Shown here piece after piece: positions 3,898 through 16,757 of a DNA stretch of 17,073 nt. The stretch spans positions 1 to 17,073 of the forward strand of contig JAGBTR010000250.1 of the NCBI GenBank assembly GCA_017631215.1, read 5' to 3'. How positions within the stretch are numbered: position 1 is the stretch's first letter; each line of letters begins with the position of its first letter. The stretch is from Clostridia bacterium (GTDB lineage: Bacteria; Bacillota; Clostridia; Oscillospirales; CAG-272). The position numbers and the translations under genes were made by a program. The notes beneath the pieces are model-generated. The model saw only the letters and a program-made list of their open reading frames with translations. It did no database searches and was not told where the DNA came from.

Positions 3898-3929
3898 TCG
3901 GGCGGTAGATGCCGTCAAGGAGGGCTGAT

Positions 3930-4712
3930 ATGGGCTGGGGGCCTTTGTTCTTTGGATATTTTCTTGCCTTTGTGCCGGGACAGAACGTGCTGCTTTCGAC
4001 ACCGATGCTGCTCATAGGCGGCGGCTTTATGCTGTGGGGTCTGATCCGACTCTCGCGCTATTGCCATACCTTCCGCTATGCCACGCTCGGCGTGGTGCTG
4101 ATGATGGCGACGGCACTCTTGGGAGCGGGCTTGCTGCTTGTTATGCCTCCCCTTGAGCTGTCGACCGAGACGCTCGGTGTGGCTGATTGGCTGCGCGTGC
4201 TCTCCGAGTCGGGGAGATATGTGTGGCTGGATTGGATAAGATTACTGTTTCTGATGCTCTTCCACGTGGCGCTGGCCTTCTCCGTCAAGGAGATCGCCTT
4301 GCGTGTCGGCGTGGAAAAGAACGCGGTGCGAGCACTTCGCAATCTGGTGCTGCTCGGCGTGTATGTGCTGGCGATCGTTTTGCAGAGCAGCGGTGTTGGC
4401 ATCGCGCATCTTGCTGAGGTGGCGACCATCGTGCTTTTGATCGTTTCCGTCTGCAACAGCGTGATGCTGTATTCGTGCTATATGCGCATCGCGCCCGCCG
4501 AGGGCGAGGACGCGGAGGACACACGCAAGCCGTCGCGCTTTGCCTTCGTCAACCGTTTCCGCGCCAAAATGCAGGAGCGCGAGGACAAGGCTCGCGAGGC
4601 CGACCGCGCATACAGCGAGCAGCAAATGCGCGAGGAGCGCGAAAAGCAGCTTTCACGTATGTCGAAAAAACAGCGACAGCGCGAGGAGGCTCGCGATCGC
4701 AACAGAAAATAA
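3930..4712 (+). CDS. Unrecognised multi-pass membrane protein with charged C-terminal tail
   Basis: A 260-residue protein of a family I do not recognise. Five to six hydrophobic segments are visible, roughly at residues 5-17, 24-41, 51-72, 103-118, 138-152 and 163-183. From about 190 to the end the chain is extremely charged (runs of E, R, K, Q such as EQQMREEREKQ), likely a cytoplasmic coiled coil. The start is the ATG at 3930 because AAGGAGGG lies 5 bases upstream; an ATG seven codons earlier lacks such a site. It begins 32 bases after the secA stop and ends 31 bases before the next membrane-protein gene, so the three probably form one transcript. A role linked to export or the envelope is only guilt by association. 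No enzymatic motif is seen. Confidence 0.8.
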   Translation: MGWGPLFFGYFLAFVPGQNVLLSTPMLLIGGGFMLWGLIRLSRYCHTFRYATLGVVLMMATALLGAGLLLVMPPLELSTETLGVADWLRVLSESGRYVWLDWIRLLFLMLFHVALAFSVKEIALRVGVEKNAVRALRNLVLLGVYVLAIVLQSSGVGIAHLAEVATIVLLIVSVCNSVMLYSCYMRIAPAEGEDAEDTRKPSRFAFVNRFRAKMQEREDKAREADRAYSEQQMREEREKQLSRMSKKQRQREEARDRNRK

Positions 4713-4743
4713 CCGCCGACAGGGCGGGGAAGGGAGACCGCAA

Positions 4744-6234
4744 ATGGCAAGACAAAAAACAGCACTGGGTCGCGTTGGCTGGACACGGCTTTCGTGGGTC
4801 GTCGCGCTGGTGTTGTTATTCAATCCCAATATGCACGGCGTGGATATTTTGCCCGATGCGGTCGGATATCTGCTTCTGATCCATGCGCTTCGTCGGGTGG
4901 CAACGCTGGATGACAGCTTTGCCGAGGCGTCACGCCTGCTTGGACGTATGGCCTGGCTGAGTGCGGCGCGTCTTGTGGGGCTTGTATGGATCATCGCCGT
5001 TCCCGGTGCAAACGAGCAACCGACGCTTTTGCTGTTGCTCAGCTTCGTGCTGGGTGTGCTGGAGCTGATCACGGTCTTTCCTGCGTGCCATCAGCTGTTC
5101 CGCGGATTGGCCTACCTCGGCTCGCGAATGGGCGGCGAGGTCGTGCTGACCTCGGTGCGTGCGGAGCGGAACCGTCGCATTCTTAAGGCGCTGGAGCGGC
5201 CGATGAGCGAGGGACGCCGTGCGCGACTGGAGCGCAAGCTCAAAAAGCCGGTGGGGGGCGATATGACCGACCGTGCTTGTCTGGATTGTCTGATTTTTGC
5301 CGTTGTGAAAACGGTGCTTTGCGTCCTTCCCGAGCTGAGCGCGCTGTCCGAGCCGACCTATCGCGAGGGTGTGACGCTGGTCAACTGGTACGCCTACGTC
5401 AATCTGTTCCGCGTGGCGGCGCTGGCCGTCGGTTCTGTCGTCGGTCTTGTGTGGCTCTGCCGTATGGCACGCTATCTGCTTCGCATTGAGGCGGATACGT
5501 CGCTGTGGGAGACGCTTGAGATGCGCTGTGACGAGGACGAGCGCAACCACCCCGAGCGCCTGCCTGCCCGCCATTTGCGCCTTTTTGTGGGGCTCACATT
5601 TGCCGCTTTCGTGTTTTGTATCAACTTTTCGGTTGACAACGTCAACCTCTTCCCGAGCGTGCTGACGCCGCTGATCCTGCTTGGTGCGCTGAGCGTGCTT
5701 CGTCAGTATTTGTCGCGTCTGACCGTGTGGCTGTGCGCACTGTGCTGTGCCGTTTCGACGGCGGCGTCGGGCGTGGCGATGGCAATGTCGCTGTCCTTCT
5801 TCGCCAAGTACGACGTCAGTGCTTATTTTCGCAGTGAAACGGTGCAACGCGCCTACGACGGTGTGTTCGTTGTCACGGTGATAGAGTCGGTCGCTACGGC
5901 GCTGATGCTTGTCTTGCTGTTTGTTGTGCTTTGGCAAATGATCGCACGCTATACGGGTCACCACGACGCCGCGACCTTCTGCTATACCAAGGAGGAGATC
6001 ATCCGCGTCCGTCGCCGTCAGCTCGTCGGGCATACCGTGCCCGTGCTTGTGCTGGGCATCCTCAGCGCGGCGGCACATCCCGTCTACGTCTATCTTTTGC
6101 CCGAATATGATTTCGTCTGGCTGATTGACGTTGGCGTCGCGCTCTTGTTTGTTTTCTTCGCATGGATGCGCCTGGGTGATTGGCGTGAGGAGCTGGACCC
6201 GCACGCGATGCTGGACGGCAGAAAAGTTAAATAA
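4744..6234 (+). CDS. Unrecognised polytopic membrane protein, third gene of the secA operon
   Basis: A 496-residue, very hydrophobic protein of unknown family. I count about ten to twelve candidate membrane helices, for example near 15-27, 70-86, 94-114, 181-197, 220-240, 280-296, 303-318, 327-350, 374-400, 429-448 and 457-474. A basic cytosolic-looking loop (residues 138-172, rich in R, E, K) and an acidic loop (259-275) interrupt them. An early segment FNPNMHGVDILPDAVGYLLL precedes an amphipathic stretch. The ATG at 4744 has AAGGGAG 7 bases upstream. The frame stays open for 68 further codons upstream, but those overlap the preceding gene and lack a ribosome site. A strong terminator follows immediately. 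No transporter, protease or transferase motif is recognisable. Confidence 0.8.
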   Translation: MARQKTALGRVGWTRLSWVVALVLLFNPNMHGVDILPDAVGYLLLIHALRRVATLDDSFAEASRLLGRMAWLSAARLVGLVWIIAVPGANEQPTLLLLLSFVLGVLELITVFPACHQLFRGLAYLGSRMGGEVVLTSVRAERNRRILKALERPMSEGRRARLERKLKKPVGGDMTDRACLDCLIFAVVKTVLCVLPELSALSEPTYREGVTLVNWYAYVNLFRVAALAVGSVVGLVWLCRMARYLLRIEADTSLWETLEMRCDEDERNHPERLPARHLRLFVGLTFAAFVFCINFSVDNVNLFPSVLTPLILLGALSVLRQYLSRLTVWLCALCCAVSTAASGVAMAMSLSFFAKYDVSAYFRSETVQRAYDGVFVVTVIESVATALMLVLLFVVLWQMIARYTGHHDAATFCYTKEEIIRVRRRQLVGHTVPVLVLGILSAAAHPVYVYLLPEYDFVWLIDVGVALLFVFFAWMRLGDWREELDPHAMLDGRKVK

Positions 6235-6367: not shown

Positions 6368-7129
6368 ATGAACGAAACTAAGGACGTTTATGAAATTGAC
6401 CTGATACAGCTGATCAAAGCACTTTTGAAAAAGTGGTGGGCTATGGCGTTGCCCGCACTGGTCGGTGCTATTCTGATGTTCAGCTATACTACCTTGTTTG
6501 TGACTCCTCTGTATCGCTCGACGGCAAAGATGTACATCAACGCGTCGACCTCCAGCAACATCGATATGAGCGGACTTTCCACGGCGCGTGACCTTGTAGA
6601 GACGTATGCGTATCTGGTCAAGAATACGCGAATGACGCTTGAGGAGGTCGCCGAGAAAACGGGTCTGGATTACTCCTACGAGCAGATGCGCGGTATGATC
6701 TCGGTTGCGGGCGGCGGTAGCACCGAGTTCCTTGAGATCACAGTGGCCTGCCCCAATCCCGAACACGCATGCCTGATCGCCAACACGGTGATGGAGATCC
6801 TGCCGGGACGCGCGGCTGCGACCAATCTGAACTCGACCATTTCGGCCGCCGACTGGGCAACGGTTGCCAAGGAGCCCTCGTCGCCCAACACGATGAAAAA
6901 CGTTATGCTTGGCTTTATCGTCGGCTGTATGCTGGGTGCCGCTGTCATCGTTCTCAAGGAGATCTTTGATGATAAGCTCCAGTCGGAGAGCTGGCTCCAG
7001 CAGGCCTTTAAGGACGAGATCCCTGTGCTGGCGGTCATTCCCTCGACGGATCGCGCTCAAGGCAAAAAATCCGGCTACAATTCGTATTACGGCCATTACG
7101 CGCCGAACGGTAGAAATTCGTCCCGTTGA
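6368..7129 (+). CDS. Wzz/CpsC-type chain-length regulator and kinase adaptor
   Basis: A 253-residue membrane protein of the Wzz/YveK/CpsC family, which sets polysaccharide chain length and activates the partner tyrosine kinase from the membrane. An N-terminal cytosolic DVYEIDLIQLIKALLKKWW is followed by TM1 (about 24-46), an extracellular coiled domain beginning with the family signature PLYRSTAKMYI, and TM2 (about 177-197) after EPSSPNTMKN. The C-terminal cytosolic tail contains LAVIPSTDR and then four tyrosines at 237, 240, 241 and 244. Tyrosine clusters are usually on the kinase, so this is notable. GAAAGGAG lies 13 bases before the ATG, a rather long spacing. The kinase gene starts 30 bases downstream. 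Confidence 0.9.
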   Translation: MNETKDVYEIDLIQLIKALLKKWWAMALPALVGAILMFSYTTLFVTPLYRSTAKMYINASTSSNIDMSGLSTARDLVETYAYLVKNTRMTLEEVAEKTGLDYSYEQMRGMISVAGGGSTEFLEITVACPNPEHACLIANTVMEILPGRAAATNLNSTISAADWATVAKEPSSPNTMKNVMLGFIVGCMLGAAVIVLKEIFDDKLQSESWLQQAFKDEIPVLAVIPSTDRAQGKKSGYNSYYGHYAPNGRNSSR

Positions 7130-7159
7130 CCGAGAGCAAATTGAAAAGGAGTTGATCCT

Positions 7160-7909
7160 ATGGCATATAAAAACACACAGGAATCGATGGCGCGAAGAAC
7201 CGTGCACAAGCTCGGCCCCGAGCTGGATTTTGCGGCGTCTGAGGCATATAAGCTGCTGCGTACCAATTTGTCCTTTTCCATCCCCAATCAGGAGCGTGGT
7301 CGTGTGGTCGGTGTGACCAGCCCCCGCCCCCGAGACGGTAAGAGCTATACGTCCATCAATCTGGCGTATTCGCTCGCAGAGGCAGGCAACCGTGTCGTGC
7401 TGATCGACGCCGATATGCGTCGCTCGAGCATTGCGTCGACACTGGACAAGCCGCTCTCGCCCGGACTTTCCAACTATCTGGTCGGTGACGCCAAGGACGT
7501 GATCCACAAAAGCGTCCTGCACGAAAAGCTGTCGCTGATCACGGCGGGCGATGCCCCCCCAAACCCTGCTGAGCTTGTCGGCTCGGAGCGTATGCATCTG
7601 GTGCTGGATGCACTCAGCCAGCGCTACGATTACGTGATCGTCGATCTGCCCCCCATCAATCTGGTGGCAGACCCGTTGGTCGTCTCCAAGTATCTTGACG
7701 GCATTATCCTGGTTTTGAGACACGGCGTTTCCAAGCGCAGTGAGATCAAGGATACGGTTCGTCAGCTGAAGTTTGTGGGCGCGCATATCCTCGGCTTCGT
7801 GTATAACGGAAACGGTAAGGATCAGGGCGGTATGTCTCGCGGTTATTATCCGGCATCCTACGCACCCCAAAGAAATTCGGGCGTCGTGTCAGAGGATGAC
7901 AAAACCTGA
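7160..7909 (+). CDS. CpsD/CapB-type bacterial tyrosine kinase (BY-kinase)
   Basis: A 249-residue cytoplasmic autophosphorylating tyrosine kinase of the YwqD/CpsD/CapB family, acting with the preceding membrane adaptor to control capsule or exopolysaccharide assembly. Visible motifs: the oligomerisation motif EAYKLLRTNL at 28-37, Walker A SPRPRDGKS at 54-62, Walker A' VLIDADMRR at 80-88 and Walker B VIVDLPP at 159-165. The tail has Tyr229, Tyr230 and Tyr234 (GYYPASYAP) as likely phosphoacceptors. The Walker A is unusual: homologues normally read PGEGKS where this one has PRDGKS. AAGGAG lies 8 bases before the ATG. A terminator-like hairpin follows the gene, then the cognate phosphatase gene. 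ParA/MinD relatives are excluded by the adaptor and phosphatase neighbours. Confidence 0.93.
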   Translation: MAYKNTQESMARRTVHKLGPELDFAASEAYKLLRTNLSFSIPNQERGRVVGVTSPRPRDGKSYTSINLAYSLAEAGNRVVLIDADMRRSSIASTLDKPLSPGLSNYLVGDAKDVIHKSVLHEKLSLITAGDAPPNPAELVGSERMHLVLDALSQRYDYVIVDLPPINLVADPLVVSKYLDGIILVLRHGVSKRSEIKDTVRQLKFVGAHILGFVYNGNGKDQGGMSRGYYPASYAPQRNSGVVSEDDKT

Positions 7910-7971
7910 AGCACTCGCAAACGCGCAACGGTAAAGCACGTGTGGCGCAGGTCGAGAGTAACAATGAAATG

Positions 7972-8027
7972 GAAATAGTAATTGTTGCCCAAGGTTTGCC
8001 CGGCGGTTGCGGTTACTATTTCTTTTT
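7972..8027 (+). terminator. Intra-operon terminator-like hairpin (possible attenuator)
   Basis: GAAATAGTAA (7972-7981) pairs perfectly with TTACTATTTC (8013-8022), enclosing a 31-base G/C-rich loop, and TTTTT follows at 8023-8027. It sits between the kinase and phosphatase genes, 30 bases before the phosphatase start. It could end a share of transcripts, act as an attenuator, or be a target for processive antitermination, which is known in polysaccharide operons (EAR RNA, LoaP). No ligand-binding RNA fold was recognised. Confidence 0.6.
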
Positions 8028-8056
8028 GTAATTCAGAAAAGGGAAGGAGAGAAGCA

Positions 8057-8824
8057 ATGAGCGCAACACGATCCGAAACGGTTGTATGGCGACAGCCGCC
8101 TGACTTTCATTCCCATATTCTCCCGATGATGGATGACGGGAGCGACAGCGTGGCGACGTCGCTGGAGATGCTGACACGCAGTGCCGCCTACGGATGCTCC
8201 GTGATGGTGGCAACGCCCCATTTTTACCCTGAAAACGAAGGCCCCGACGCCTTTCTTGCCCGTCGTGCCGCGTCGGCGGCGCGTCTTTTGAACGGCGGTT
8301 ACGATCCGTCGCGCCACCCCTGCGTCTTTCTTGGCGCAGAGGTTGCCTATTTTACCGGTATCGGTCATTGTGCCGACCTTAAACGGCTGACCGTTCTCGG
8401 CACGCGGACGGTGCTTGTCGAGATGCCCTTCTGCCGTTGGACGGACTCGATGGTGGACGATATCCTTTTCATTCGCGATCATCTCGGGCTTTGCCCCGTG
8501 CTCGCGCATATCGAGCGGTATCGTGCCTTTTACAGCCGTCGACAGCTGGAGCTGCTCATCGAAGAGGGCGTGGCAATGCAGGTCAACGCGAGCAACATTG
8601 CCGGTTGTCTGACGCGATATCGTGCCAGACGAATGGTGGCGAGTGGGGTGGTGCAGCTGATCGGGTCGGATTGCCATAATCTCGGTACGCGCCCCCCCAA
8701 TCTGGATGTTTTGCTGCACGATCTTGCGTCGCACGGTGGGGAGTCGCTTTTGTCTCGGATGACCGAGCAGTGCCGCTTGCTTTTGCGCGGTGCTGTTCCG
8801 CTCGAGCAGACACCTGGTACTTGA
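8057..8824 (+). CDS. PHP-type tyrosine-protein phosphatase (CpsB/YwqE family)
   Basis: A 255-residue metal-dependent phosphatase that removes phosphate from the CpsD-type kinase and so resets the polysaccharide switch. The PHP-family metal ligands are all visible: DFHSHILPMMDDG at 16-28, ATPH at 52-55, GAE at 93-95, HIER at 151-154 and GSDCHN at 203-208. The length matches the usual 240-260. GGAAGGAG is positioned a few bases before the ATG at 8057. The frame is open upstream for 25 codons, but these run through the hairpin and have no ribosome site. The next gene begins 53 bases downstream with no terminator between, so the two are probably co-transcribed. The reaction is assigned from the family, and the kinase two genes away supports it. 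Confidence 0.93.
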   Translation: MSATRSETVVWRQPPDFHSHILPMMDDGSDSVATSLEMLTRSAAYGCSVMVATPHFYPENEGPDAFLARRAASAARLLNGGYDPSRHPCVFLGAEVAYFTGIGHCADLKRLTVLGTRTVLVEMPFCRWTDSMVDDILFIRDHLGLCPVLAHIERYRAFYSRRQLELLIEEGVAMQVNASNIAGCLTRYRARRMVASGVVQLIGSDCHNLGTRPPNLDVLLHDLASHGGESLLSRMTEQCRLLLRGAVPLEQTPGT

Positions 8825-8877
8825 CTTTTCAATTGCATTCGATATCTCTCATATATGACGAAGAGGAGTTTGCTTTT

Positions 8878-10752
8878 ATGAAGAAAAAATTGCTGATGTT
8901 GGGCGGTGTCGATCTTGGCGTTACGCTCTGTGCGTACGCCGCGGTGATGCTGTTGGCCTATGCCTTGGAGCACGCGGAAGTAGCGCTTGTCTGGCTTTGG
9001 GTGCCTGTCCTTGCGCTCCTGATCGGATACCTTCTCATTTTCGGTGCGTGTCATATCAACGATACGATCTGGCGTTACGCAAGCGAAAAGGATTACATCC
9101 GTATTGCCGCCACGACGCTGGGTCTTGGCACGGTTCTTTCGCTTTCGATGTGGCTGAGCGGCGCGGTCGCTGTGCGTCTGCCCTATCATCTGCTGGCGGT
9201 CGCGTTGGCAACGGGCGGCGTGGTGCTTTCCCGCTTGATCTACCGTATGCGTTGCTCTCGCCAAAAGGGAGGCGCCGAGACCTCGGTGTCCGGTAAAAGG
9301 CTGCTGATCGTCGGCGCGGGCTTTGTCGGCTCGGCGATGGTCAACGACATTCGACGCAATCCCCGCGCAGGGCTGTCCATCGTCGGTCTGGTGGATGATA
9401 ACCCCCAAAAGATCGGCTGCTCGATCTCGGGCTATTCGGTGCTTGGCAGTACCGAGGACATCGAGCGCATCTGCCGTGAGAAGGATGTGGAGCTTATCTA
9501 TATCGCCATCCCCTCGGCGACCAATACCGAGCGTGCGCGCATTCTTTCCGAGTGTGCAAAGACCAACTGCACGGTCAAGATCCTGCCCTACTTCTCCGAA
9601 ATTGAGGGCGAGAGCGACTTTACCCGATTGGTGCGTGACATCACCCCCGAGGAGCTGCTCGGGCGCGATCCTATTCAGGTCGCGGACGACAAGATCTACG
9701 AGTTTGTCAGCGGCACGCGCGTGATGATCACCGGTGGCGGCGGCTCGATCGGCTCGGAGCTGTGCCGTCAGGTCGCGGCTCATTCGCCTGCGAGATTGGT
9801 CATCGTCGATATTTATGAAAACAATGCCTACGCCATCCAGCAGGAGCTTCGCAACCGCTATGGCGATACGCTCAACCTCGAGGTGTACATCGCCTCGGTC
9901 AGAGACGCGAAAAAGATCGACTATCTCTTCTCGCTGGAAAAGCCGCAGATCGTCTTCCACGCGGCGGCGCATAAGCACGTGCCGCTGATGGAGGTCTCGC
10001 CTGAGGAGGCCATCAAGAACAACGTCTTCGGCACCTACAACACCGCCCTTGCCGCCAACAACCACGGCACGGATCGCTTTGTGCTCATCTCGACCGATAA
10101 GGCGGTCAATCCGACCAACATCATGGGCGCGTCCAAGCGCGTGTGTGAGATGGTTATTCAGTATTTCAGTCAGACCTCCGAGCACACCACTTACGCGGCG
10201 GTGCGCTTCGGTAACGTGCTCGGCTCCAACGGCTCGGTCATTCCGCTCTTTAAGGAGCAGATCAAGCAGCGTCACGATATCACCGTGACCGATCCGCGCA
10301 TCATCCGCTATTTTATGACCATCCCCGAGGCCAGCCAGCTGGTGCTGACGGCGGGAGCGATGGCAAGCGGCGGCGAGATCTTTGTGCTCGATATGGGCGA
10401 GCCCGTCAAGATCGACGACCTGGCGCGCAAGATGATCAGTCTGTCGGGACTTGTGCTGGGACGCGATATTAACATCCGCTACATCGGTCTGCGACCGGGC
10501 GAAAAGCTGTATGAGGAGCTGCTGATGAGCGAGGAGGGGCTTAAGGAGACGCTCAACCACAAGATCTTTATCAGCAGTGTCCTGCCCGTTCCTCCCGAGG
10601 TGATGGAGGGGCATCTTGAGATGCTGAGAACGAACATCGTCGAGCGCGTCGGCGTTTCGGGCGACGAGGTGGAGCGTTTGCTCAAGGTCATCGTTCCTTC
10701 CTTCCAGCGCTACGTGCCCGAAAAGGACAAAAAACAAGAGACGCCTGTCTGA
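8878..10752 (+). CDS. Membrane-bound UDP-N-acetylglucosamine 4,6-dehydratase (CapD/EpsC/PglF/WbpM family)
   Basis: A 624-residue nucleotide-sugar dehydratase that makes UDP-4-keto-6-deoxy sugars, the first step to sugars such as bacillosamine, QuiNAc or FucNAc. About four N-terminal membrane helices (roughly 5-30, 37-57, 77-98, 102-121) precede a first Rossmann segment (GAGFVGS, 146-152). The catalytic short-chain dehydrogenase domain follows, with NAD-binding TGGGGSIGSE at 285-294, HAAAHKHVPLME at 361-372 and STDKAVNPTNIMGASKR at 405-421. The S-M-K arrangement (Met416, Lys420) replaces the usual Ser-Tyr-Lys triad, as known in the large membrane members. AGAGGAG lies 9 bases before the ATG at 8878; an earlier in-frame ATG at 8770 overlaps the phosphatase gene. 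It is the last gene before a strong terminator and is full length. Confidence 0.93.
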   Translation: MKKKLLMLGGVDLGVTLCAYAAVMLLAYALEHAEVALVWLWVPVLALLIGYLLIFGACHINDTIWRYASEKDYIRIAATTLGLGTVLSLSMWLSGAVAVRLPYHLLAVALATGGVVLSRLIYRMRCSRQKGGAETSVSGKRLLIVGAGFVGSAMVNDIRRNPRAGLSIVGLVDDNPQKIGCSISGYSVLGSTEDIERICREKDVELIYIAIPSATNTERARILSECAKTNCTVKILPYFSEIEGESDFTRLVRDITPEELLGRDPIQVADDKIYEFVSGTRVMITGGGGSIGSELCRQVAAHSPARLVIVDIYENNAYAIQQELRNRYGDTLNLEVYIASVRDAKKIDYLFSLEKPQIVFHAAAHKHVPLMEVSPEEAIKNNVFGTYNTALAANNHGTDRFVLISTDKAVNPTNIMGASKRVCEMVIQYFSQTSEHTTYAAVRFGNVLGSNGSVIPLFKEQIKQRHDITVTDPRIIRYFMTIPEASQLVLTAGAMASGGEIFVLDMGEPVKIDDLARKMISLSGLVLGRDINIRYIGLRPGEKLYEELLMSEEGLKETLNHKIFISSVLPVPPEVMEGHLEMLRTNIVERVGVSGDEVERLLKVIVPSFQRYVPEKDKKQETPV

Positions 10753-10755
10753 ATA

Positions 10756-10787
10756 AAAAAGCAACGGTCGAGAGACCGTTGCTTTTT
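10756..10787 (+). terminator. Intrinsic terminator of the polysaccharide control operon
   Basis: AAAAAGCAACGGTC (10756-10769) and GACCGTTGCTTTTT (10774-10787) form a perfect 14-bp stem with a GAGA loop ending in five T, just 3 bases after the dehydratase stop. The A-run on the left could make it bidirectional. Confidence 0.95.
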
Positions 10788-10814
10788 GCGTGCAAAGAAT
10801 CTTTGCTTGCCATC

Positions 10815-10843
10815 TTGACATTTTGAAATGAATATGCTACAAT
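10815..10843 (+). promoter_or_regulatory. Promoter of the first TIR gene
   Basis: TTGACA (10815-10820), a 17-base AT-rich spacer and TACAAT (10838-10843). The spacer and the bases after the -10 (AATATG, then TACAATGAAAAA) closely match the promoter of the second TIR gene at 11937-11965. Confidence 0.85.
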
Positions 10844-10894
10844 GAAAAAGTGATTGGCTTCACAATCTTTGCTTTTTGATTAATGGAGACGAAT

Positions 10895-11872
10895 ATGGAC
10901 GTATACGAGGGAAAAGACAATTACATATTTATCAGCTATGCTCATAAGGATGCAGCGACGGTCGTTCCGATTTTAGAGCAGATGCAGAAGAACGGCTTCC
11001 GCTTGTGGTATGACCTTGGCATCGAGGCGGGCACCGAATGGCCCGAGTACATTGCCGAGCGGTTGGAGGGCTGTCATACGGTGATCGCGTTTATGTCCGA
11101 TCACGCCGCGTCCTCGCGTAATTGCCGCAACGAGATCAACGAGGCGTTGAATTTGGAAAAGGATATGCTGGTCATCCACCTGAGCGAGACTCAGCTCACG
11201 CCCGGTATGCGCCTGCAGCTCAACAGCACGCAGTCGATGTTTTATTACCATCACACAACGATGGACTCCTTCCTCACCGAGCTGTATAAGGCCCGCATTC
11301 TTCGCGAGTGCCGCGACGGTAGCGTAGAGGAGCAGACGCCGAACACCAACATCAAGATCGAGGTGAAGCACGCTCCCGAGAAGGAGGAGCGCACGGCGGC
11401 GGTCGTAGAGGAGACTGCTCCTAAGCAGGAGCAAAAGCGCGAGGATCTCAGCGCCGAGCAGCTTTGCCAGCTTGGACATACCTATTTGCGCGGCATCAGC
11501 GTGGCAAAAGACGTCGAGGAAGCGGAGCGGTGGTATCGTATGGCCGCCAAAAAGGGCTCGGCAGAGGCGCAGAATGCGCTTGGTAATTTCTATTACAAGG
11601 GCATTTCCGTGGCGATCGACTACGCGAAGGCGTTGGAGTGGTATCGCCAGGCGATCGAGACGAACGGTCTTCCCGCCGCTTATTTCAACGTGGGAAAATG
11701 CTACCTGATGGGCTGCGGTGTCGATCAGGATCTTGTCGCGGCACTGCGTTGCTTCGGCAAGGTGCTTCTCAAGATCGGCACGGTCATCTGGTCCTTCCTC
11801 AAGCGCGTGGCGGATAAGGTGATGAACAAGAGCAAAAAGCTGGTTGACAAGATCAAGCAGGAATGGGGTTGA
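10895..11872 (+). CDS. TIR-domain protein with Sel1 repeats, copy 1
   Basis: A 325-residue protein with an N-terminal TIR domain (about 1-138), a charged linker (about 140-185), roughly three Sel1/TPR-like repeats (about 186-289; AERWYRMAAKKGSAEAQNALG is typical) and a basic helical tail. TIR landmarks: box 1 YIFISYAHKD at 10-19, WYDLGIEAG at 38-46, and Glu80 in SRNCRNEINEAL at the position of the catalytic glutamate of NAD-cleaving TIRs. NADase activity is therefore plausible but unproven. The tail (about 290-325) is rich in Lys, Trp and Leu and may bind membranes. I prefer the ATG at 10895 because GGAG lies 6 bases upstream; an in-frame ATG at 10883 overlaps that site. The gene has its own promoter and terminator. 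No Thoeris ThsA, nuclease or SAVED partner is nearby. Confidence 0.9.
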   Translation: MDVYEGKDNYIFISYAHKDAATVVPILEQMQKNGFRLWYDLGIEAGTEWPEYIAERLEGCHTVIAFMSDHAASSRNCRNEINEALNLEKDMLVIHLSETQLTPGMRLQLNSTQSMFYYHHTTMDSFLTELYKARILRECRDGSVEEQTPNTNIKIEVKHAPEKEERTAAVVEETAPKQEQKREDLSAEQLCQLGHTYLRGISVAKDVEEAERWYRMAAKKGSAEAQNALGNFYYKGISVAIDYAKALEWYRQAIETNGLPAAYFNVGKCYLMGCGVDQDLVAALRCFGKVLLKIGTVIWSFLKRVADKVMNKSKKLVDKIKQEWG

Positions 11873-11878
11873 ATATTC

Positions 11879-11909
11879 CGACGGGCGTGTCAGAGCGCCC
11901 GTCGCTTTT
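11879..11909 (+). terminator. Intrinsic terminator after TIR copy 1
   Basis: CGACGGGCG (11879-11887) pairs with CGCCCGTCG (11896-11904) around an 8-base loop, followed by C and a short TTTT run. The short U-tract suggests incomplete termination. Confidence 0.75.
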
Positions 11910-11936
11910 GCTTATAAAAGAAAGGGTACCCCCTCC

Positions 11937-11965
11937 TTGACAATTCAAAAGGAATATGATACAAT
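11937..11965 (+). promoter_or_regulatory. Promoter of the second TIR gene
   Basis: TTGACA (11937-11942), a 17-base spacer and TACAAT (11960-11965), in the same arrangement and with much the same spacer sequence as the copy 1 promoter. The duplication therefore included the promoter. Confidence 0.85.
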
Positions 11966-12016
11966 GAAAAAAACAGCAGAGGCCGTTACGACACATATGG
12001 ATCAATGGAGGTTGCT

Positions 12017-13102
12017 ATGGACGTTTACGAAGGAAAAGAGAACTACATATTCATCAGCTACGCGCACAAGGATTCTGCCGTGGTCGTTCCCATTCTGGAG
12101 ACGATGATGAAGCACGGATTTCGTCTTTGGTACGATCTTGGCATCGAGGCGGGCACCGAATGGCCCGAGTACATTGCCGAGCATCTGCAGGGAAGCCGCA
12201 CCGTCATTTCGTTTATGTCGAACCACGCATCGAACTCGCGCAACTGCCGCAACGAGATCAACGAGGCGCTCAGCCTTGATAAGGACACGCTTGTGATCTA
12301 TCTGAGCGAGACGCAGCTCACGCCCGGTATGCGCCTGCAGCTCAACAGCACACAGTCGATGTTCTACTATCACCACGAATCGATGGATTCCTTCATTGAG
12401 GCACTGCTCAAGGCAAGGATCCTCAAGGATTGCCGCGGCAGTGCACCGTCTGCCGCACCGAGCGTGGGCATCCCCTATCAGGCGCCTGCTGCACCTGCGG
12501 CACCGACGCCCGCACCCGCCCCGACTCCCACGCCGACGCCCGCTGTGACGGCGACTCCCGTCAAGCCCGCGGTAATCGCCACCGAGCCGAGAAAGCCCGC
12601 TGTGACGGCCACCGAGACTATGCCCCGCGCAACGCAGTTTTCGCACAAGCAGGAGGAGAACGATAAGCTGGATCTGTCGGCCGACCAGCTGTATCAGGTG
12701 GGACGCAGCTACGCCGAAGGACTCGACACCCCCCGCGACTATGCGGAGGCGGAGTGCTGGTACCGTATGGCTTACAAAAAAGGCTCGGCCGAGGCGGCCA
12801 ACGCGCTGGGTGAGCTTTATTGTAAGGGCGTGTTCATCGGCGTTCCCGAGTACGTCAAGGGCATCGCTTGGTTCCGCAAGGCCATCGACCTGAACGGTCT
12901 TCCCGCCGCCTACCGCAACCTTGGCAAGTGCTACAGCAACGGTTACGGCGTTCAGCCGGACGCCGCGGCGGCGTTTGATTGCAAGGCTAAGGGCGCTGTC
13001 AGCTTCGGAAAGCGCATCGGCGGTGCGCTCAAGAGCTTTGGTGATGCGTTGACCGGTAAACGCAGAAGAGCCTTTAAGAAGGTCAATAAGGCGCTCAAAT
13101 AA
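12017..13102 (+). CDS. TIR-domain protein with Sel1 repeats, copy 2
   Basis: A 361-residue paralogue of the preceding gene. The TIR domain (1-138) is about four-fifths identical and keeps YIFISYAHKD, WYDLGIEAG, Glu80 and a shared LTPGMRLQLNSTQSMFYYHH block at 101-120. The linker (about 141-215) is entirely different: long and made of Pro, Ala and Thr (APTPAPAPTPTPTP at 162-175). Three Sel1-like repeats follow (about 220-325; AECWYRMAYKKGSAEAANALG), then a glycine- and lysine-rich amphipathic tail (GKRIGGALKSFGDALTGKRR from 331). The ATG at 12017 has GGAGG 5 bases upstream; the in-frame ATG at 12005 overlaps that site. It has its own promoter and a strong terminator. NAD hydrolysis or signalling is inferred from the retained glutamate; the target is unknown. 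Confidence 0.9.
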   Translation: MDVYEGKENYIFISYAHKDSAVVVPILETMMKHGFRLWYDLGIEAGTEWPEYIAEHLQGSRTVISFMSNHASNSRNCRNEINEALSLDKDTLVIYLSETQLTPGMRLQLNSTQSMFYYHHESMDSFIEALLKARILKDCRGSAPSAAPSVGIPYQAPAAPAAPTPAPAPTPTPTPAVTATPVKPAVIATEPRKPAVTATETMPRATQFSHKQEENDKLDLSADQLYQVGRSYAEGLDTPRDYAEAECWYRMAYKKGSAEAANALGELYCKGVFIGVPEYVKGIAWFRKAIDLNGLPAAYRNLGKCYSNGYGVQPDAAAAFDCKAKGAVSFGKRIGGALKSFGDALTGKRRRAFKKVNKALK

Positions 13103-13104
13103 GT

Positions 13105-13138
13105 AAAAAAACCGACGGACGTGCGTCCGTCGGTTTTT
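13105..13138. terminator. Bidirectional terminator between TIR copy 2 and the phosphodiesterase
   Basis: ACCGACGGAC (13111-13120) and GTCCGTCGGT (13125-13134) form a stem around GTGC, with seven A on the left and five T on the right. It lies between convergent genes and can serve both strands. Confidence 0.95.
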
Positions 13139-13140
13139 CT

Positions 13141-13743: not shown

Positions 13744-14535
13744 TCAGATCTTAGCGGCAAGCTCGTTGAGATAGGACAGAGCAACGGTAGCATCACCCTT
13801 GAAGTCCTTGGTGTGCGCCTCAACGCTGACGTTGCCCGTGTATCCTGCCTCCTTGAGCGCGGAGAGGAATTCGACGTACAGCGCCTCGTTCTCGGCCGAG
13901 CCGGGCTTGGGGTAGACGCGCGTGCCGGGCTCTGCGATGTGGACGTTGAAGACGTAGTCCTTATACTTGACGAGGTTGGAAAAATCCTCACCGCCTGCGT
14001 GCATATGATACATATCGGGGTTGACACCCAGATTCTTGCACGCGGGGACGCGGCGGATGATGTCGTAGGCGTCCTCAACGGTGTGGATGAAGTTGGTCTC
14101 CTCGGCGCGGAGCGGCTCGATGGCGACCTTGATGCCGTACTCGTCCGCGATGGCGCAGAAGCGCGCAATCAGCGATGCCAGACGGTCAGCCGCTTCGTCG
14201 CGCGTCATGCCCTCGGGAATGTTGCGCGCCGTGCCGCTACCCATACAAACGCTCTTACAGCCAAGGCTCGCCGCGCGCTCCATACCGCGACGGACGAAGT
14301 CGCAGACCTTTTGCGACTGCTCCTCGGTGCCGTACAGCACGGAGTCGCCGGGAAGCATACTGTTCATCGAAACGACGGTCACGGGCGTCGCGCGCAGAAT
14401 CTCGCGCTCCTTGACGAATTGCTCCTCGCTCATATTGGCGTACATTGCAAAGCCGGATTCGATGTGTTTGCCGCCGAGCTCGTTCATAATGGGGGCGTTG
14501 GGAAGAGCGGTGCAGGCTCCGATTTGAATCTTCAT
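13744..14535 (-). CDS. Sugar-phosphate isomerase/epimerase (xylose-isomerase-like TIM barrel), copy A
   Basis: A 263-residue AP-endonuclease-2/IolE-type TIM barrel. Such enzymes bind a divalent metal and isomerise or epimerise keto-sugars, or dehydrate inosose. Likely metal and catalytic residues by family pattern are Glu140 (VAIEPL), Asp174 and His177 (NPDMYHM), His199 (FNVHIAEPG) and Glu239 (SVEAH). A protein well over half identical is encoded immediately upstream, so the pair is a tandem duplication. The ATG at 14535 has AAGGAAGGA upstream. A terminator follows. The substrate cannot be told; possible relatives include D-tagatose/D-psicose 3-epimerases and hydroxypyruvate isomerases. No kinase, transporter or regulator for a sugar pathway is adjacent. 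Confidence 0.88.
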   Translation of the reverse strand: MKIQIGACTALPNAPIMNELGGKHIESGFAMYANMSEEQFVKEREILRATPVTVVSMNSMLPGDSVLYGTEEQSQKVCDFVRRGMERAASLGCKSVCMGSGTARNIPEGMTRDEAADRLASLIARFCAIADEYGIKVAIEPLRAEETNFIHTVEDAYDIIRRVPACKNLGVNPDMYHMHAGGEDFSNLVKYKDYVFNVHIAEPGTRVYPKPGSAENEALYVEFLSALKEAGYTGNVSVEAHTKDFKGDATVALSYLNELAAKI

Positions 14536-14576
14536 AATTAGTAGTCCTTCCTTATATTTGTTGATATCATATTGCT

Positions 14577-14598
14577 TGAGAAGGCGGTTGCTTTCTCA
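14577..14598 (-). other. Hairpin between the two isomerase genes
   Basis: On the minus strand TGAGAA and TTCTCA, extended by an inner GC/GC pair past one mismatch, can fold into a stem over a short loop. No U-run follows, so it is not a terminator. It might be an RNA processing or stability element between the two copies. Confidence 0.4.
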
Positions 14599-14610
14599 TA
14601 GTGGCACGGA

Positions 14611-15399
14611 TCAGATGGCTGCGGCCAGTGAGTTCAGATAGGCGATGCCGTCGGTGACGTCGGCACAGAAGTCATCGGTCAGCGCCTCGATGCTGACGTT
14701 GCCCTCATATCCTGCCTGCTTGAGCGCAGTGAAGAAGCGGACATAGGTCTGCTCGTGCTCGCTTCCCGTGTGAGGGAAACGAAGCGAGCCGGGCTCGGAC
14801 AGGTGAACGTTGAACACGTAGTCCTTGTATTTGATCAGCTCGGAAAAATCCTCGTTGGCGTCGCACATATGGAACATATCCACGTTGATGCCGAGATTGT
14901 CGCATTCGGGCAGACGGCGGATGATGTCGTAGGCATCGGCGAGCGTGTGGATGAAGTTGGTCGCCTTGGAGAACAGCGGCTCGATGGCGATCTTGATGCC
15001 GTACTCCGCCGCAATGGCACAGAAGCGGGCGGTGATGGCCGCTAAACGCTCGGAGGCTTGCTCGCGCGACATTCCGTCGGGAATGCTGCGTGCGCCGCCG
15101 CTGCCAAAGCAAATGCTCTTGCAGCCCACCTTGGCCGCGCGCTCCATACCGCGTCGGACGAAGGCACAGACCTCCTCGGTCTGCTTGTCGTCGCCGTACA
15201 GCGAGTAGCCGCCGGGGATCATACCGTTCATCGAAACGCAACGAAGCGGCGTTGCCAAAAGTGCGGTCAGCTCGCGTTCGAAATCCTCTTCGGACATTTG
15301 CGCGTAGGTGGCAAAGCCCGACTCAATGCTTTTTGCACCGATCGAGTGGATGAACTCGGCTTGGGTGAAGGGCGCGCACGCGCCGATTTGAAGGTTCAT
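14611..15399 (-). CDS. Sugar-phosphate isomerase/epimerase (xylose-isomerase-like TIM barrel), copy B
   Basis: A 262-residue paralogue of the gene downstream, with the same framework: IESGFA..A.MSEE near 25-38, FVRRGMERAA at 80-89, GSG.AR.IP.GM at 99-110, Glu140 (IAIEPLF), Asp174 and His177 (NVDMFHM), His199 (FNVHLSEPG) and Glu238 (SIEAL). It differs from copy A next to the last glutamate (AL against AH) and in the loops after the metal ligands, suggesting related but distinct substrates. The ATG at 15399 is preceded by AAAGGA about 11 bases upstream. It lies 33 bases after the flavin reductase stop and 75 bases before copy A, so the three are probably one transcript. The exact reaction is unknown. 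Confidence 0.88.
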   Translation of the reverse strand: MNLQIGACAPFTQAEFIHSIGAKSIESGFATYAQMSEEDFERELTALLATPLRCVSMNGMIPGGYSLYGDDKQTEEVCAFVRRGMERAAKVGCKSICFGSGGARSIPDGMSREQASERLAAITARFCAIAAEYGIKIAIEPLFSKATNFIHTLADAYDIIRRLPECDNLGINVDMFHMCDANEDFSELIKYKDYVFNVHLSEPGSLRFPHTGSEHEQTYVRFFTALKQAGYEGNVSIEALTDDFCADVTDGIAYLNSLAAAI

Positions 15400-16024: not shown

Positions 16025-16687
16025 TTATGGAATTTGCTGAATCCGACGGTAGATATCCTGCATCTTTTGATCGATGGCCGCGATCTCGTCGGCGCTTTTG
16101 AGCATCTGCTGGACGATGTCGGCGGGGATATCCTTCTCGGATTTGTAGTGCAGATCGTGTTCAAGGCTTGCCCAAAAGTCCATCGCGACGGTGCGGATCT
16201 GTACCTCGGCGGTGACGTATTCGGTGCGCTCGGACAGATAGATGGGCACCTCAAAGTCCAGATGCAGCGAGCGGTAGCCGTTGTAGTTTGGGGTTTTGAT
16301 GTAATCGGTGGTCTCGACAAGGCGCAGATCAGATTGGCGCAGAAGCATATCGGCCACCGAATACACGTCGTCGATGTAGTCGCAGACCACGCGGATGCCC
16401 GCAATGTCATTGAGATTCTTTTTGGCAGATTCCAGACTGACCTCAAAATGGCGACGATTGAGCTTCTTGAGAATGCTTTGAGGCGACTTGAGACGGCTGT
16501 CGATGTGGTGGATGGGGTTTCTCATATAGCGGACCTTGAATTCATCGTTGAGAATGTCCAGCTTGGTTTTGATTTCCTTGATGGCGGCGTTGTAAAGCTG
16601 CTGCATCTCCAGTAGCTCTTGGTAATTATGAAACAGCGGCGACAGATCTGCGGGGATCGTTTTGTCGGCAAGCAGGAGGTTGTTCAT
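16025..16687 (-). CDS. relQ: Small alarmone synthetase RelQ/YjbM (GTP pyrophosphokinase)
   Basis: A 220-residue single-domain (p)ppGpp synthetase that transfers pyrophosphate from ATP to GDP or GTP. There is no HD hydrolase domain. The RelA/SpoT synthetase signatures are present: NPIHHIDSRLKSPQSILKKL at 57-76 (nucleotide-binding segment), NDIAGIRVVC at 93-102 (metal-binding Asp94), TPNYNGYRSLHLD at 132-144 and EVQIRT at 161-166 with the following FWASLEHDLHYK. Length fits RelQ (about 210-230) rather than RelP or full-length Rel. I take the ATG at 16687, with AAAGGA upstream; an in-frame ATG 15 codons earlier lacks as good a site. The gene diverges from the rRNA operon promoter about 130 bases away, a suggestive arrangement because (p)ppGpp lowers rRNA synthesis. 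Confidence 0.95.
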   Translation of the reverse strand: MNNLLLADKTIPADLSPLFHNYQELLEMQQLYNAAIKEIKTKLDILNDEFKVRYMRNPIHHIDSRLKSPQSILKKLNRRHFEVSLESAKKNLNDIAGIRVVCDYIDDVYSVADMLLRQSDLRLVETTDYIKTPNYNGYRSLHLDFEVPIYLSERTEYVTAEVQIRTVAMDFWASLEHDLHYKSEKDIPADIVQQMLKSADEIAAIDQKMQDIYRRIQQIP

Positions 16688-16727
16688 ATCATCATCCTTT
16701 CTCGGGAAGTTTTTGCATCTATATTGT

Positions 16728-16757
16728 ATCATATTTCACAGAAGATTGCGTGAACAA
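16728..16757 (-). promoter_or_regulatory. Possible promoter of relQ
   Basis: On the minus strand TTGTTC (16752-16757), an 18-base spacer and TATGAT (16728-16733). An overlapping TACAAT at 16723-16728 is a better -10 but lacks a well-spaced -35. Tentative. Confidence 0.45.

Follow-up and report, generated by a model that had tools for sequence, protein, structure and literature searches.

The stretch of DNA considered here (hereafter the window) is a 17,073-nucleotide contig (C268) from a member of the Clostridia, the genome assembly of which comprises 1.89 Mb in 343 contigs and is 73% complete. Two adjacent genes on its forward strand each encode a TIR domain joined to Sel1 repeats, namely gene 1 (10895..11872, 325 amino acids, aa) and gene 2 (12017..13102, 361 aa). 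The open reading frames (ORFs) counted from the first ATG begin at 10883 (329 aa) and 12005 (365 aa); the starts at 10895 and 12017 are likely because of their Shine-Dalgarno spacing, a GGAG preceding the first of these ATG codons and a GGAGG the second in the sequence. Both starts give the same protein lengths as the database entries P0001 and P0004, and they agree with the numbering of Glu80, the putative catalytic residue named in an earlier, purely sequence-based description of this locus (the original prediction).

The two genes form separate transcription units, as had been proposed, and this layout is confirmed. A promoter match of the sigma-70/A type, TTGACA-17-TACAAT, with 11 of 12 consensus positions and a TG before the -10 element, precedes gene 1 (10815..10843, +; direct repeat D4), and a match of the same form, also with 11 of 12 consensus positions, precedes gene 2 (11937..11965, +). 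No other promoter match is found between 10700 and 13200; shuffled sequence contains 1.3 on average, so that the count is in itself unremarkable and the argument rests on position and repetition, the two matches being 1122 bases apart, exactly like the gene starts. Hairpins set the two units apart: a terminator-like hairpin lies 3' of gene 1 (11879..11904, +) and a symmetrical one, listed by the scan on the minus strand, 3' of gene 2 (13105..13140). A further hairpin 5' of gene 1 (about 10760-10790) was seen by eye and is absent from the list made by the program. The tRNA and Rfam scans gave no matches.

Domain Architecture and the Conserved Glutamate

The Pfam families above the curated cut-off in both proteins are of the TIR and Sel1 types only, in agreement with the architecture originally described. 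TIR_2 (PF13676) scores 70.9 bits in gene 1 and 64.8 in gene 2 (cut-off 28), Sel1 (PF08238) 69 and 54.4 bits (cut-off 30.7), and ThsB_TIR (PF08937) 32 and 27 bits (cut-off 21.2). In gene 1 the TIR domain, with Trp38, Cys77 and Glu80, occupies residues 1-140 (10895..11314, +), the Sel1-repeat superhelix residues 177-279 (11423..11731, +), and the C-terminal tail, predicted as one long helix in the structure model, residues 280-324 (11732..11866, +). The TIR domain of gene 2 (12017..12436, +) also carries Glu80 and is identical to that of gene 1 at 114 of 140 residues (81%), very near the four-fifths first estimated, the identity of the whole proteins being 53%. It is followed by an Ala/Pro-rich linker, longer than that of gene 1 (approximately 12443..12667, +), and by Sel1 repeats (approximately 12668..12982, +).

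In the model of gene 1 a disordered linker, with low confidence at residues 152-176, connects the TIR domain to the Sel1 superhelix, and according to both Pfam and this model no STAND or NB-ARC ATPase lies between them. Structure comparison of the model with known Sel1 proteins gave 31-36% identity among the ten best Foldseek rows, and the matched Sel1 folds include the Legionella proteins LpnE and LceB. Neither protein has a membrane segment in its tail, a leader peptide visible by eye, or a SAVED or STING domain above cut-off; a SAVED-TIR match in PADLOC is confined to the TIR part (residues 14-95).

Glu80 is conserved in all 173 listed proteins and in 94 of the 96 TIR genes of the sampled genomes, the window's own included. 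In profile comparisons it aligns with the glutamate of AbTIR and Cat1, at a catalytic-type position in the alpha-C helix.

Age of the Duplication

The original prediction had drawn attention to 46 bases shared by the two genes (11015..11060 and 12137..12182, both +), and the identity is indeed exact, with mismatches at both edges. Translated, this stretch gives the family signature LGIEAGTEWPEYIAE, largely retained among the members, and it amounts to 15 identical codons in a row, a run that was reached in 0.6% of 20,000 permutations (p 0.006). It is therefore longer than expected, yet requires no recent event. At the residues shared by the TIR domains, Met and Trp excluded, 65 of 106 codons (61%) are identical against the 48% predicted from codon bias, an excess so small that it gives no sign of recent duplication. 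The numbers of synonymous substitutions per site (dS, Nei-Gojobori) are 1.22 in the TIR domain, 1.41 in the linker, 1.32 in the Sel1 repeats and 0.93 in the C-terminal helix, and the corresponding nonsynonymous values (dN) are 0.13, 1.18, 0.36 and 0.78, a pattern indicating that the duplication is old, that the TIR domain is tightly constrained and that the tails are freer to vary. With a dS of 1.22 in the TIR domain and of 0.93-1.41 elsewhere, a recent duplication or gene conversion behind the 46-base identity is disfavoured; a short conversion tract limited to that stretch is conceivable, given a codon run above chance.

A Broad TIR Subfamily with Exchangeable Tails

Rather than an isolated two-copy unit, as first supposed, the pair is part of a TIR subfamily that is broad and patchy, with many tail types and recurrent tandem copies. 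The closest relatives of gene 1 are P0002 (83% identity) and P0003 (73%), both TIR-Sel1 proteins, and gene 2, itself aside, has nothing closer than gene 1, P0002 and P0003 (52-54%). In a search of genome contigs three distant proteobacterial loci also matched, over the tail. At an expectation value (E) of 1e-15 or lower, the TIR subfamily is found in 42 of 395 genomes of the family, belonging to 27 of 71 genera, and in 25 of 394 genomes of the order, the window's genome being included in both counts. Within the genus the pair is present in one of six genomes, the window's own; at E 1e-15 G005 has one weak match and the other four have none, and weaker, partial TIR matches are visible in G001 and G005. 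A literature search with partial coverage retrieved no description of a TIR-Sel1 fusion; a Sel1-repeat gene is reported in an operon with the abortive-infection gene AbiU2 (PMC3710099).

The neighbourhoods and tails of the subfamily were studied in 80 stretches around its genes plus the window, 96 TIR genes in all, a sample that is not random, the stretches having been picked from match lists and many of them stopping at contig ends. In this sample 22 of the 96 TIR genes adjoin another TIR gene, in nine loci of two to four genes, the window among them. Two genomes (G257 and G278) contain at least ten matches to the subfamily each; at E 1e-15 no match is found in G011, a 98% complete genome that shares their genus code. 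Two array members (L080:1395-2750:- and L083:10950-12836:+) have lost most of the GIEAGTEWPEYI loop and retained the glutamate, and could possibly be degenerate partners.

Pfam was run on 95 of the 96 TIR genes. Among the 25 of 35 families listed, the tails are LRR_5 (27), Sel1 (10), MORN (4), FtsK (3), protein kinase (2), TM2 (2), DUF6273 (2), TPR_16 (2), NUDIX (1), tubulin-like (1) and DnaA (1). In two proteins (L181:4989-7487:+, 832 aa, and L188:408-3086:+, 892 aa) a pair of TIR domains encloses the alpha, motor and gamma domains of FtsK, and the gene of each adjoins a TIR gene labelled LRR. A TIR-NUDIX fusion of 288 aa (L187:4522-5765:-), the Nudix box of which looks partly degenerate by eye, has a second, separate gene for NUDIX directly downstream, which hints at a role for products of the ADP-ribose type.

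The exchange of tails was followed on a quick maximum-likelihood tree of the 96 TIR domains (140 columns), in which 16 of 93 inner branches are starred, 40 are open, and some rows are long-branched and of unsure placement. The window pair are sisters on this tree (SH-aLRT 96), and the nearest other rows, P0002 and P0003 lying outside the tree, bear a different tail. Tail labels, set by patterns and by hand, require 38 changes (26 when unclassified rows are left aside), against a minimum of 9 and 57 in shuffles; the labels are therefore clustered but repeatedly exchanged. The Sel1 tail, with nine rows, requires six changes, at least three of which are forced by starred branches.

A third TIR gene of the window's genome (L216:220-1881:-, on contig C72) falls elsewhere, in a separate TIR-LRR clade of 12 rows on one starred branch, made up of this gene and eleven relatives of about 530-556 aa. 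Neighbours were scanned for four members of the clade: two are flanked by a CitMHS-type transporter on one side and by a protein of 625-643 aa without Pfam match on the other, as if this neighbourhood had been kept vertically, and the other two have a neighbour of 663-704 aa, again without Pfam match.

Partners and Known TIR Systems

That no known partner adjoins the pair, as first noted, holds for the 13 other window ORFs that were scanned, in which neither ThsA, SAVED or STING nor their nuclease families were found; no CD-NTase family and no recognisable CRISPR gene occur among them either. A search of 33 of the about 64 TIR-bearing genomes known found ThsA_Macro in one and SIR2_2 in five (four over cut-off), the window's incomplete genome having neither. 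Around the relatives, no recurrent partner gene is obvious among the families listed (25 of 119 Pfam families, 107 neighbours), the most frequent being ABC_tran with five.

Compared with described systems, the pair differs from Thoeris in that no ThsA is found beside it or in the available part of the genome, and ThsB is not known to carry a Sel1 tail. It differs from the TIR-SAVED and TIR-STING proteins of the cyclic-oligonucleotide-based antiphage signalling systems (CBASS) by the absence of a SAVED or STING domain and of a CD-NTase family among the scanned neighbours, and from STAND/Avs and TIR-NLR proteins in having a linker only between TIR and Sel1. Avs5, a Sir2-STAND-repeat protein that cleaves nicotinamide adenine dinucleotide (NAD), resembles the pair in its NADase output and in its C-terminal TPR/Sel1-like repeats, a region reported to be essential for activation; its output is Sir2, which a STAND ATPase separates from the sensor, and no ATPase family is found in the pair (PMC12931631). 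Of the solved structures, Cat1 is the one that matches best in sequence (profile E 4e-9). This CARF-TIR protein of type III CRISPR likewise joins a TIR domain to a sensor, with the difference that its sensor is a CARF domain reading cyclic tetra-adenylate (cA4) and that no CRISPR gene was recognised in the scanned window ORFs (PMC12162218). In SpbK of Bacillus subtilis a single protein combines TIR and ligand-binding part, senses the phage portal and becomes a clustered NADase, its TIR domains assembling head to tail (PMC12847820). The TIR profile matches the SpbK chain with E 0.0034; the SpbK sensor is N-terminal, unlike the C-terminal Sel1 tails of the pair, whose genes stand in tandem. The TIR_2 NADases of gut commensals, including Clostridia, described by Weagley et al. 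(PMC9092222) are of the same Pfam class, and some of them are reported to make ADP-ribose (ADPR) or cyclic ADPR (cADPR) isomers; the term 'sel1' is absent from the main text of that paper.

Proposed Mechanism and Alternative Explanations

By analogy with SpbK and Avs5 we infer a mechanism in which NAD cleavage, ligand-driven clustering and defence would be combined. Each gene would encode a cytoplasmic sensor-effector complete in itself, in which the Sel1 superhelix, together with the long helix at the C-terminus, would recognise a protein ligand; the likeliest candidate is a phage protein or some other mark of attack or damage. Recognition of the ligand would gather several molecules, and the TIR domains would stack head to tail, completing the active site around Glu80. 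In active TIR assemblies a head-to-tail strand is reported to be a shared feature, and the active site of enzymatic TIRs to lie between two domains (PMC11364022). The clustered TIR domains would then cleave NAD+, causing a growth stop or producing an ADP-ribose-type signal. As the TIR domains are nearly the same and the linkers, repeats and tails different, the two genes probably have one output and different inputs, and their products may co-assemble. We give this scheme of a ligand-clustered NADase an even chance of being correct; the TIR domains are probably capable of NAD cleavage, and defence against phage or other attackers comes slightly short of an even chance.

A number of observations weigh against the scheme. 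Biochemical data on this TIR subfamily were not found, and a published screen of 152 bacterial TIRs found activity in only 28 as expressed (PMC9092222). Matches of the TIR profile to the TIR domains of TLR15, TLR1 and MyD88 are of much the same strength as those to NADases (1e-7 to 2e-4), and the VIA-align rows take in those of TRR-2, IL-1RAcP and MyD88. Since signalling TIRs match about equally, similarity alone leaves the choice between an enzymatic and a signalling TIR undecided. The model has a pTM (predicted template modelling score) of 0.52, which makes the relative placement of TIR and Sel1 unsure. Four residues before Glu80 both proteins, like 168 of the 173 listed, have an asparagine (Asn76), and not the tryptophan that occupies this position in AbTir and SARM1, or the tyrosine of SpbK; a tryptophan there is not essential, because in SpbK, which is active as an NADase, Tyr188 stands at the same spacing from Glu192.

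The genomic context of the relatives points in the same direction. The co-occurrence with defence genes that had been suggested for checking shows no clear enrichment: PADLOC family matches, several of which are models of one family, number 14 per 107 neighbours and 25 per 131 near the relatives, and 17 per 131 among control genes farther away on the same stretches. The most frequent match, mad3, most likely picks up ABC transporters by cross-matching, one member (L080:6451-9333) carrying ABC_tran and FtsX; a few individual neighbours do resemble candidate defence families, in one case strongly (PDC-S01, 3.5e-96). Relatives are also rare on viral contigs, so that a mobile-defence signature is lacking: searched with two peptide patterns, the IMG/VR collection yielded one confirmed locus, and none of the nine matching phage records covers 80% of the query, eight of them, judged by the aligned ranges of their best hits, matching the Sel1 part or the tail only. 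Plasmid records behave similarly, none of 236 covering 80% of the query and the 20 listed matching the Sel1 part and the C-terminal tail only. The pair as phage or plasmid cargo was accordingly rejected.

An alternative that retains the enzymatic activity is that the TIR domains make a cyclic ADP-ribose isomer, as in Thoeris, which would be read by a protein encoded elsewhere. The score of ThsB_TIR in both proteins agrees with it, as do the gut TIRs known to make cADPR variants (PMC9092222). The scarcity of ThsA_Macro and SIR2_2 in TIR-bearing genomes, and their absence from that of the window, speak against it, within the limits of a partial genome and of a search outside which other receptor types fall; on balance we regard such a signal maker as unlikely.

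In a second alternative the TIR domains would be a non-enzymatic scaffold regulating the cell envelope or the adjacent exopolysaccharide genes. The wzz, ATPase, cpsB and epimerase genes immediately precede the pair and share its variable slot; the TIR profile finds MyD88 and TLR TIRs as well, and a survey is reported to see TIRs mainly as signal-dependent complex formers, NAD cleavage being less common (PMC7075850). Set against this are the promoter match that each TIR gene has of its own, the lack of a recurrent polysaccharide family among the families listed for the neighbours of relatives, and the near invariance of the catalytic-type glutamate, which together make a scaffold improbable.

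Third, the proteins could be NADases of general stress or growth control, responding for instance to envelope or protein damage rather than to phage. The absence of a clear defence-gene context would fit, and so would the TIR-LRR clade, with its two of four scanned members in a like neighbourhood. A patchy spread (42 of 395 family genomes) and recurrent tandem copies suit conflict genes better than housekeeping ones, and we see little chance for this explanation. Pathogens have TIR effectors, and Legionella Sel1 proteins are among the matched folds, so that an effector delivered into a host cell might be considered; the host-interaction role once suggested is nevertheless unsupported and very improbable, as the tails have no membrane segment, no leader peptide is visible by eye, and the FtsK, kinase and NUDIX tails of relatives suggest an intracellular role.

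If the ligand-clustered NADase is the right explanation, gut-type Clostridia possess a family of NAD-cutting switches, each encoded by a single gene. Surveys of defence islands could miss them, because the surroundings of the sampled genes are unremarkable and the pair of the window is served by promoters of its own. With one TIR head on changing tails, the subfamily would offer a natural experiment on how TIRs are triggered and on the target of each tail. There may also be a bearing on gut NAD metabolism, a TIR product having been reported in vivo there (PMC9092222).

Of more interest than the pair itself is the wider picture in gut-type Clostridia, where one TIR head is combined with tails that can be exchanged and occurs repeatedly in arrays. 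A possible though doubtful extension is that the subfamily forms a receptor-like repertoire without ATPase, in which copies of one conserved TIR NADase head, in many cases lying in tandem, would have been fused anew to changing bait or detector tails (Sel1, BspA-type LRR, MORN, TPR and TM2, and entire cellular modules, among them FtsK, protein kinase, NUDIX and tubulin-like domains). Its parallel in plants would be the TIR receptors with integrated decoys, and the pair described here would represent a minimal locus of two receptors that share their output and divide their inputs.

Genomic Setting

Upstream of the pair lie four exopolysaccharide-type genes (6368..10752, +), encoding Wzz, an AAA_31/ParA-type ATPase, CpsB/CapC and Polysacc_synt_2. 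In three sister genomes (G003, G004 and G005) the order is spoU, secA, two membrane genes, a gene of about 320 aa, yfcE and a flavin-reductase gene, with an isomerase gene between the last two in G004 and G005 and an extra small ORF before yfcE in G003. In the window the four exopolysaccharide-type genes and the TIR pair stand in place of the gene of about 320 aa, which consists of ECF_trnsprt plus DUF1893 in the two sisters scanned. Two further genomes (G001 and G002) retain yfcE and the isomerase gene, secA falling outside the stretch examined. The flanks are thus shared and the contents differ: the region is conserved, and the slot that contains the pair is variable.

Behind secA lie two genes (3909-6234) that match no Pfam family, and their order is kept in three sister genomes at 41-46% identity. 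On the minus strand downstream of the pair (13744-15399) are two tandem sugar-isomerase-like genes of the AP_endonuc_2 family, with a 300-base repeat at 76%; of the three sister genomes, two have one copy here and the third none in the stretch examined. Farther on (16025-16732, minus strand) is a RelA_SpoT-domain protein of 235 aa with no further Pfam domains, presumably a small alarmone synthetase.

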